Source: a virus. From it: DNA of 23,310 bases. This document shows positions 1,999 through 21,721 of this stretch, one piece after another. The position numbers were made by a program, and so were the translations under genes. The stretch is from positions 1 through 23,310 of IMG/VR virus record IMGVR_UViG_3300010151_000180. One strand, 5' to 3'. The notes below the pieces were generated by a model that was not told the origin of the DNA, did no database searches, and saw only the letters and a list, made by a program, of their open reading frames with translations. Position 1 is the first letter of the stretch; the number at the start of each line of letters is the position of its first letter.

Positions 1999-2492
1999 AC
2001 TCGATAAAAATTATAACTGTCTTGTCTGACCTCGATTACAAAATCTCTCTGGCAGTAAGTGATGCCATGACTGACCTAACGTCTGAGTTTAAAGGGTCAG
2101 CAAAGAACAATGAGGAAACAGCAGCCGAACACTCAATGAACATAGCAATGGCAACACAGAAGATCGCATCCAAACTGACAACAAGGTTCAAGAAGGATCA
2201 CGATCTATCTAAGAAGAAACTAGACGCAGCTTGTGAGCAGTTGATTGGCTCGTCACTAATGACACTTATTCCTGGAACAACAACTACTCTGTACTCTGAC
2301 AATATGTTTGTGTTCAGCAAACGTATGAATGAGGATAGTGCTGTTTGCTCGGCTAAAGATCTGATGATCGAACTAAACAAACTTGGTGTTGATCCAGATC
2401 AGATTGCTAAAGCAAAAGAAGCTGCTACTAAAGTCAAGAAGGGGAACGTCTACTACAACGTAGATGTTAATGAAACAGACGGAGGTACGTGA
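1995..2492 (+). CDS. Hypothetical early phage protein
   Basis: 165 residues, no family recognised. GGAGGA at 1985-1990 stands four bases before the ATG, and the start overlaps the preceding stop (ATGA). The N-terminal half is helical with many Ala, Ser and Lys residues. A middle segment LIPGTTTTLYSDNMFVF (about residues 92-108) looks like beta strands, and the C-terminal part is helical again (DPDQIAKAKEAATKVKKG). No membrane segment or Cys pair. It lies in a tightly packed set of small early genes, so an accessory role in host takeover or replication is possible, but this rests on position only. Confidence 0.65.
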   Translation: MNSIKIITVLSDLDYKISLAVSDAMTDLTSEFKGSAKNNEETAAEHSMNIAMATQKIASKLTTRFKKDHDLSKKKLDAACEQLIGSSLMTLIPGTTTTLYSDNMFVFSKRMNEDSAVCSAKDLMIELNKLGVDPDQIAKAKEAATKVKKGNVYYNVDVNETDGGT

Positions 2493-2641
2493 TGGTTGGA
2501 GTATTCATCATTGTTCTTGTACTTCTCTTATTCGCCAGCCAAACAGAGCAGGCAGTGCATCCAACAGATTTAATGATGACGCAAGAGGAGCTAGTGCAAC
2601 AAGAGATAGAGCTAACCCCATTATATAAGGATAAGAAATGA
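2492..2641 (+). CDS. Small single-pass membrane protein (49 aa)
   Basis: Reads from ATG 2492 to TGA 2639-2641. The ribosome-binding site GGAGGT (2481-2486) is five bases upstream. The start overlaps the preceding stop (TGATG) and its own stop overlaps the next ATG (ATGA), so it fits exactly into a coupled operon; this is the best evidence that it is real. Residues 2-16 (VGVFIIVLVLLLFAS) form one hydrophobic helix. The rest is acidic and polar (TQEELVQQEIEL) and ends in KDKK. The likely topology is an N-terminal anchor with a short cytoplasmic tail. Early phage membrane peptides of this kind often act on the host envelope or on superinfection, but no family is recognised here. Confidence 0.7.
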   Translation: MVGVFIIVLVLLLFASQTEQAVHPTDLMMTQEELVQQEIELTPLYKDKK

Positions 2642-20421: not shown

Positions 20422-20868
20422 CTATACAGCCAAGAACAATTCACGTTCTTTAGCTCTGCGTTTTACTAAGCCTTTAAGTATTCTACCACCCGCCCTTCTC
20501 CACTTAGGAAACTCATCAGCGGCACCTTCGTACGAACCTCTATTTAATTTCATTCTTAATGTACTTCTTTGAAAGTTCCCACTTCCTATATTGTATATTA
20601 TAGAAGCAAGACTTGAGTACATATTCTCAGTTAACTCAGCAGTAACTAGTTTCCTAATTGCATGATCAACATGCTTTAACTCTCTTAGTAACAGTAACTC
20701 TCCATGACCTTTATCTATCTTCTTATGGTTCATGTTAACTTTGTCACCATTAATATCCCAAGTAGAACCAAAGCCTATAGTAGCAATACCCGCAGGACAT
20801 TTATAAGGGCGGCTTGACCACCCTTCGTAGTACTTAATAATGTCTAATCCTGCTTCGTTTATCTTCAT
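20422..20868 (-). CDS. Endolysin, GH24 phage lysozyme
   Basis: 148 residues with the family's catalytic array: Glu15 (YYEGW), Cys24 in the PYKCPAGIATIGFG motif (the D/C position) and Thr30, matching the E-(8)-D/C-(5)-T pattern of T4/P22-type muramidases. Cuts the NAM-NAG beta-1,4 bond of peptidoglycan. There is no signal peptide or SAR anchor, so export depends on the holin upstream in the operon. The start overlaps the holin stop by four bases (ATGA). The length (148) is typical of R-type lysozymes. The C-terminal half RRAGGRILKGLVKRRAKERELFL is the usual basic 'R..G..L.GLV.RR..E' end. Confidence 0.92.
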   Translation of the reverse strand: MKINEAGLDIIKYYEGWSSRPYKCPAGIATIGFGSTWDINGDKVNMNHKKIDKGHGELLLLRELKHVDHAIRKLVTAELTENMYSSLASIIYNIGSGNFQRSTLRMKLNRGSYEGAADEFPKWRRAGGRILKGLVKRRAKERELFLAV

Positions 20869-21302
20869 TTTCTGTTAAAACTTCTCTGACCAAACCAGAA
20901 AGAAACAACAGCAGCCCAGACAGCTTGGAACTCATCATTCCAAATCATCTTGTACTGTTCCATTGTTATCCAATCAGCATTAACACAAACAGAAAGTGCA
21001 GCGAACTCAATGAATAAACAGTATGTTATTATTGGTCTAACTGAAGAACTAAGATTAATAACCCACTGACTAGACTTAGCAGTTATTGTTGCGTGTTCTT
21101 TATGTAATGTCTCAGTCTCTCGGATATCTGCGTCGATATCCATCATCTGCATCTTCTGCTTTCCAATCTGCAACTGTTGATCTAGTTGCTTATCCATCAT
21201 GGAAAGTTCGTGAGCTTGATCTCTTTTCTCTTCAAAGAAGTTAAGTACCTTTGGAAGAAAGGAAGTACCAAAACCAAGGACTGATCCGACAAGAGATAAC
21301 AT
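20865..21302 (-). CDS. Holin, 3TM/GTA-holin-like
   Basis: 145 residues. An amphipathic N-terminal helix (residues 1-23, VGSVLGFGTSFLPKVLNFF), a charged coiled-coil linker (24-75, EEKRDQAHELSMMDKQLDQQ) and a C-terminal membrane part: WVINLSSSVRPIITYCLFIEFAAL (about 80-103) then FQAVWAAVVSFWFGQRSFNR (about 124-144). The 'S.RP.ITY' and 'FWFG.R' motifs match phage proteins annotated as 3TM holins. It would form inner-membrane holes that release the cytoplasmic lysozyme encoded next. SD GGGGAG is seven bases upstream and lies within the 20-aa ORF, whose stop overlaps this start (TAATG). Confidence 0.82.
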   Translation of the reverse strand: MLSLVGSVLGFGTSFLPKVLNFFEEKRDQAHELSMMDKQLDQQLQIGKQKMQMMDIDADIRETETLHKEHATITAKSSQWVINLSSSVRPIITYCLFIEFAALSVCVNADWITMEQYKMIWNDEFQAVWAAVVSFWFGQRSFNRK

Positions 21303-21364
21303 TATAAAACTCCCCAGAGTATCGGGACTGCTGCACTAAGAACTAATAAGGTTAATCCGACCAT
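21302..21364 (-). CDS. 20-residue hydrophobic peptide in the lysis cassette
   Basis: A complete tiny gene: ATG at 21364-21362, 20 codons, TAA at 21304-21302. Upstream on the minus strand AAAGGA stands seven bases before the ATG. The preceding gene's TAA ends three bases before the ATG, and its own TAA overlaps the holin ATG (TAATG), so it is inserted exactly between two genes in a coupled frame. The peptide begins MVGLTLLVLSAAVPILW and contains no charged residue, so it would be almost wholly membrane-embedded. Likely role is a small membrane partner of the holin (antiholin or lysis timer) or simply a spacer ORF that couples translation. No homology claimed. Confidence 0.6.
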   Translation of the reverse strand: MVGLTLLVLSAAVPILWGVL

Positions 21365-21367
21365 TAC

Positions 21368-21721
21368 TTATTCCTTTACAGATGGGTGTTTGCCATTGTG
21401 TATGGCATTAAGGTGTGAAATCTGTGACTTCATAACTTTAACTTCTGCCTGTAGTGTAGCCATCTCACGGTTACGATGTTCCAAAGCAGCTACACTGTTG
21501 ATATCTTTTAGTACATCAATTTGACTAGTGAATACAGCCCTCTGTGATTCTGCATCGTCTAGTCTAGCATCAAACGTAGACTTAAACTTATCAAAGTTTT
21601 TGTGGAATACTTCTAGATCCTGCATCACTCTTTGTAAGTTTGATTTCACTACTGCATATCCGCCAGCAATAGTAGCAATTAACATCAGTCCTTGTATTGC
21701 ATGAGAAGCAGTTAGTTCCAT
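21368..21721 (-). CDS. N-anchored coiled-coil membrane protein (possible i-spanin-like)
   Basis: 117 residues. One hydrophobic segment at 8-26 (AIQGLMLIATIAGGYAVV) is followed by a long helical heptad region (28-105) with Leu and charged residues and no Cys. A type-II topology with a coiled coil outside the inner membrane matches inner-membrane spanins (Rz-like) in layout, and its position beside holin and lysozyme supports a lysis role, but no outer-membrane lipoprotein partner (Rz1, a lipobox) is visible. Alternatively the coiled coil is cytoplasmic and the protein is virion-associated. GAGGT lies four to five bases before the ATG. Confidence 0.6.
   Translation of the reverse strand: MELTASHAIQGLMLIATIAGGYAVVKSNLQRVMQDLEVFHKNFDKFKSTFDARLDDAESQRAVFTSQIDVLKDINSVAALEHRNREMATLQAEVKVMKSQISHLNAIHNGKHPSVKE

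Follow-up and report, generated by a model that had tools for sequence, protein, structure and literature searches.

A 20-codon gene before a putative phage holin gene and its likeness to lipoprotein signal peptides

Antiholins and second holins, such as lambda S107 and P1 LydC/LydD, are small membrane proteins that are encoded beside a holin, as is the tiny gene discussed here. Shorter hydrophobic peptides are also known to act on membranes. The type I toxin IbsC, with 19 aa, depolarizes membranes and can be reduced to 15 aa (PMC8309996), and the signal peptide of the bacteriocin release protein, expressed alone, is functional in release according to the title of a study cited in PMC5727409. 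Furthermore, overlaps of 1 nt between genes confer strong translational coupling, and the subunits of complexes are enriched for short overlaps (PMC10666635).

Herein, we focus on a gene for a tiny peptide in a phage lysis operon. What is new is the likeness, seen in its sequence, to the signal peptides of lipoproteins that occupy the same slot in related phages. The forms of this peptide, at 16–20 residues, document purifying selection on a very short protein of phage lysis operons whose probable origin (a lipoprotein signal peptide) is unusually easy to see. If functional, the peptide would imply that a signal peptide on its own can constitute an independent gene, and it would provide a small, experimentally tractable system in which to find the minimum a phage requires to affect membrane failure. 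Gene callers would overlook such genes across a whole phage group.

The lysis operon and its smallest gene

The window (i.e., the whole stretch of DNA analyzed) is a virus record of 23,310 bases. A Pelagibacter phage (35.8% identity) is among its nearest named relatives, the genome matches are mostly metagenome-assembled Alphaproteobacteria, and a marine origin of the phage is probable, with the environment taken from these nearest relatives. The minus strand carries, in this order, the genes of a 178-aa protein and a 117-aa membrane/coiled-coil protein, the tiny ORF, and the genes of a 145-aa putative holin and a 148-aa lysozyme.

The 145-aa protein (20,865–21,302, minus strand) combines a long N-terminal helix with two C-terminal membrane helices. 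It matches PHROG 6637, a family of unknown function, and resembles Pfam GTA_holin_3TM at 17.9 bits (E 0.0045), below the gathering score of 24.8 bits, a weak match that recurs in 20 of the 24 holin-family members. Position, membrane helices, and this sub-threshold similarity provisionally point to a holin; its fold prediction is poor (pLDDT 60, pTM 0.31). The endolysin gene (20,422–20,868, minus strand) encodes a Phage_lysozyme domain (PF00959), and an N-terminal signal was not seen in its product. The 117-aa immediate upstream neighbor (21,368–21,721, minus strand) has an N-terminal membrane segment and a coiled coil and weakly matches the Rz-like spanin family phrog_739 (E 0.018); it is possibly an i-spanin.

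The tiny gene itself (21,302–21,364, minus strand) encodes MVGLTLLVLSAAVPILWGVL, a single uncharged hydrophobic segment of 20 aa with a GRAVY of 2.24. The initial annotation had described a 20-codon ORF without charged residues, and its coordinates, strand, and codon count all hold, as do the three local features that it had pointed out: a well-spaced AAAGGA resembling a ribosome site (21,372–21,377, minus strand, with a 7-nt spacer to the ATG), a tight junction with the upstream neighbor, whose stop (21,368–21,370) lies just before the tiny gene, and a coupling layout in which TAATG (21,300–21,304, minus strand) joins the two genes, with the tiny-gene TAA sharing one base with the ATG of the putative holin gene. 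The ribosome-site-like sequence of the latter, GGGGAG (21,310–21,315, minus strand), falls within the 3′-terminal codons of the tiny gene. No unusual RNA fold was detected at the junction (z +1.1), and the sequence offers no slippery heptamer, for which reason a −1 frameshift leading from the tiny ORF into that of the holin was rejected. A DNA search of annotated phages gave no match, nor did a tblastn search of the annotated phage collection with the peptide or a PHROGs search with the gene, both of which are weak for 20 residues.

Occurrence in relatives and traces of selection

A motif pattern of the tiny gene, for which shuffles of the window predict 0.00 matches, was found in 20 stretches of the viral collection; each of those that were read within the loci is an in-frame tiny ORF whose terminal TAATG leads into a member of the same putative holin family. 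Among the holin relatives from this collection, the tiny gene occurs in 16 of 197 distinct contexts, with a length of 16, 18, or 20 codons (e.g., MVGLTLLILTVAFPLLIGVL, MVGLTILIFTVALPLLIGVL, MVGLTIILFQIAIIGVLL, MVGLTFLVLQVLVIGVLL, MVGLTMLLLTLLLGVL, and MAGLAMLILTLLLGVL). Since the relatives are metagenomic fragments, independent counts are based on distinct sequences. The stop overlaps the holin ATG in all 16 contexts (as TGATG instead of TAATG in loci L030 and L054), and a ribosome-site-like sequence is always present.

An unbiased screen of ~377 related loci for mini-ORFs (uncharged, hydrophobic, 13–40 codons, with a ribosome-site-like sequence and the next gene within 10 nt) yielded 17 entries, namely 15 members of the tiny-gene family before a holin, the unrelated L099, and the family-like L222. 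As the 16-aa form of L222 precedes a nuclease gene and not a holin, coupling to the holin is usual (16 of 17 tiny-gene family contexts) and not obligatory. The ORF of L099 encodes a hydrophobic 17-aa peptide (MPLWLIIILAAAAVGGS), has a ribosome-site-like sequence, and ends 4 nt before the holin ATG, possibly a convergent case. In L011–L014, a candidate for another tiny gene occupies the same place: an ORF for a 17-aa lysine-proline repeat (MKTKPKPKPRPRPKPSY), which lies ~20 nt before the holin and has a ribosome-site-like sequence.

The upstream neighbor of the tiny gene changes among a 117-aa coiled coil, a 126-aa lipoprotein, a 65–66-aa protein, and a 134/158-aa protein, and the 18-aa form can even coexist with a full lipoprotein by sitting directly downstream of it. 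Most holin relatives have no tiny gene. On the holin tree its presence is scattered, with 7 changes, at least 5 of which are forced by supported branches. Because it is cleanly absent beside holins that are 88% identical to that of the window (L008 and L009), the gene is, by this distribution, accessory and dispensable, gained and lost 5′ of the holin gene. Broken copies were not encountered: a frameshift or stop beside an intact holin, which the initial annotation had put forward as a sign against the gene, occurs in none of the DNA-similar places (79 of 79 intact, with several of these places deriving from contigs that were retrieved repeatedly), and only clean absences were seen.

Substitutions among the relatives bear on whether the frame is read as protein. 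In the ten 18-codon forms, variable sites number 9, 1, and 16 at the first, second, and third codon positions, respectively, with a pN/pS of 0.34, and for the N-terminal MVGLT across all 15 sequences pN/pS falls to 0.08. Selection acts on the protein, since MVGLT is written with varied synonymous codons (GTT/GTC/GTA, GGA/GGC/GGG, TTA/CTA/CTT/CTC, and ACC/ACA/ACT/ACG). In a matched non-coding simulation (1500 runs along the tree of the gene itself, rescaled to match the nucleotide identity seen), the observed amino acid identity was reached in 4 runs and second-position variation as low as that observed in none (0/1500). An earlier unscaled simulation (0/2000) was too diverged (nucleotide identity of 0.71 versus 0.76 observed) and overstated the significance, and a column-shuffle test of the 20-aa set, a weak null with few stop-free shuffles, was not significant (31/184). 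With fifteen short sequences, all these selection statistics have limited power.

Not all conservation counts equally. The C-terminal GV(L) codons (GGA-GTN) hold the holin's own ribosome site, with a glycine codon that is always GGA or GGG, so conservation there is not independent evidence for the peptide. Independent evidence comes from the conserved MVGLT and from position 10, where a polar residue (Q, S, or T) is kept. The excess of synonymous change in the same frame that had been suggested as a check is thus found, and the view that the gene is unlikely to be accidental, while falling below gene-calling limits, is backed by conservation with synonymous change. Judged by these patterns, the tiny ORF is a real protein-coding gene, a microprotein whose frame is kept as protein under purifying selection.

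Relation to lipoprotein signal peptides

Lipoproteins are called here from a lipobox-like N-terminus only. In several relatives a 134-aa gene lies upstream, and differing genes follow its TAATG junction. In L023 and L390 this is a 119-aa lipoprotein that starts with MAGLALLILTLLISAC followed by QTVET; in L383, L398, L389, L406, L413, and L420 it is another lipoprotein; and in L006, L105, and L004 it is a tiny gene (MAGLAMLILTLLLGVL, MVGLTMLLLTLLLGVL, and MVGLTLLILTVAFPLLIGVL, respectively). Lipoproteins of other relatives with the same upstream gene family begin with MVPRAVVLLTLLLSACQ, MARVSIFMLTLFLAGCQ, and MARLLILPLVLALAACQ. The junction DNA is common to L023 (which continues from MAGLALLILTLLISACQ), L006, and L004 (which stop after MAGLAMLILTLLLGVL and MVGLTLLILTVAFPLLIGVL), and L023 and L004 are identical in the bases that directly precede the ATG (cggaggctctaaata). 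In L222, MVNLTILLLTLLIGIF and its stop lie between the 134-aa gene and a nuclease-like gene, exactly the position of the L023 lipoprotein, and in L053 a 45-aa lipoprotein (MAGLTMLIFSLLLGAC followed by RLEVPVD) is found just upstream of the holin.

When the L006 peptide was compared with 449 uncharged hydrophobic N-termini from all loci, its nearest neighbors outside its own family were three lipoprotein signal peptides (L053, L078, and L023), each with 11 of 16 identical residues; with 20,000 shuffled sequences, an identity of 12/16 never occurred. What the 18- and 20-aa forms have in common with the lipoprotein signals is limited to MVGLT and a generally hydrophobic character. No form of 16–20 aa contains a Cys, and the lipobox Cys of an o-spanin or lipoprotein is thus missing from all of them.

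From these comparisons, the tiny peptide is seen to occupy the slot of small lipoproteins and to resemble their signal peptide without the Cys and the mature part. The 16-aa forms clearly look like lipoprotein genes of which just the signal peptide is left, and a lipoprotein origin is likewise clear for the L004 form. The same reduction probably holds for the tiny-gene family as a whole. The proposed link is less secure for the window's peptide and the other 18- and 20-aa forms, where it is drawn from the common slot and from the MVGLT with which they begin.

Several further observations concern the same slot. Lipoproteins of 26–28 aa occupy it just upstream of the holin in L017, L018, L026, L032, L052, and L224 (e.g., MRYLTLLSVLILLGAC followed by KWRIPIDFGY), with a mature part of the form C(K/R/Q)(W/L)RIPxD...Y. 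In L222 and L023, the nuclease-like gene (MFEYGCK...GDTVDVDIDLG; weak SNase match) is inserted between the slot and the holin. Elsewhere in the window (2492–2641, plus strand), a 50-aa ORF, MMVGVFIIVLVLLLFASQTEQAVHPTDLMMTQEELVQQEIELTPLYKDKK, is located among opposite-strand genes; it aligns at 63% identity with residues 1–43 of a 121-aa lipoprotein from a lysis locus, with Ser in place of the lipobox Cys, and it was not seen in the record of L002, a locus with an identical holin.

Possible roles and comparison with known systems

The most likely role, as far as the sequences suggest, is that of an accessory inner-membrane lysis peptide. More precisely, we propose a stand-alone, signal-peptide-like inner-membrane peptide that is usually co-translated with the holin and assists or tunes lysis, to which we assign a probability of just under one half (about 0.48). 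A lipoprotein gene would have shrunk to its membrane-inserting segment, and translation of the tiny gene would yield a 20-residue, single-helix inner-membrane peptide. Since the 1-nt overlap makes termination-reinitiation likely, ribosomes that end the tiny gene would reinitiate on the holin gene, and the two products should be synthesized jointly. As one uncharged, helix-length stretch with no cleavage Cys, the peptide should be retained in the inner membrane, its signal-like helix uncleaved, where it may assist or tune holin action or membrane failure at lysis, as an activator or an antiholin, both among the candidate roles named in the initial annotation. That the bare signal peptide of a lysis-locus lipoprotein has been kept as an independent, selected gene, yielding a lysis factor of 16–20 residues that ranks among the smallest phage proteins with demonstrable selection, is a tentative proposal that has some plausibility.

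The strongest rival holds that the peptide is inert and that the gene, a lipoprotein remnant, is kept as a translational leader, since ribosome loading and the stop at TAATG would set holin synthesis. The invariable overlap with the holin ATG (16 of 16 holin contexts), the holin ribosome site within the tiny gene with its constant GGA or GGG, and the coupling known for 1-nt overlaps (PMC10666635) all agree with a leader. However, MVGLT is kept despite free codon variation (pN/pS 0.08), amino acid conservation exceeds that of the matched non-coding simulation, the L222 copy does not precede a holin, and the RNA fold is ordinary (z +1.1), which makes a mere leader somewhat unlikely. A narrower form of our preferred explanation, in which the peptide acts specifically on the holin, as its antiholin or partner, by pairing with its membrane helices and setting the lysis time, draws on the linkage to the holin, the co-translation layout, the enrichment of short overlaps among complex subunits (PMC10666635), and the polar Q, S, or T kept at position 10. 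We consider it doubtful, as holins with and without the tiny gene are close in sequence (88%) and L222 lies outside immediate holin coupling.

A free peptide that damages membranes independently of the holin, like the 19-aa IbsC, would suit the size class and hydrophobicity (IbsC works at 15–19 aa), but most relatives lack the tiny gene and we deem this explanation improbable. Finally, a functionless, decaying remnant of a lipoprotein gene could account for a slot held by lipoproteins of several lengths and for the clean losses; 79 intact copies out of 79 and the purifying selection already disfavor such decay, to which we attach very little probability.

The preferred accessory lysis peptide can now be placed beside the described systems. 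Known antiholins and second holins are several times longer, and we know of no start or sequence that they have in common with the tiny peptide. Two-component spanins (Rz/Rz1) offer a likeness in the operon, with its membrane-anchored coiled-coil protein and, in relatives, lipoproteins in the tiny-gene slot; the tiny peptide cannot be an o-spanin because it has neither a Cys nor a periplasmic part. The IbsC type I toxins are of similar size (19 aa), very hydrophobic, and composed of a single helix (PMC8309996), a likeness in size and hydrophobicity only. IbsC tolerates N-terminal deletion, whereas the N-terminus is the conserved part of the tiny peptide, which moreover belongs to a phage lysis operon with no known antitoxin RNA. 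The bacteriocin release protein (colicin lysis protein) is a literature analogy, drawn by description and, for the signal peptide acting alone, from the title cited in PMC5727409: it is a small lipoprotein tied to lysis or release, with a stable signal peptide, whereas the tiny peptide is encoded by a phage gene of its own, without the lipobox Cys and mature part, placed before a holin.
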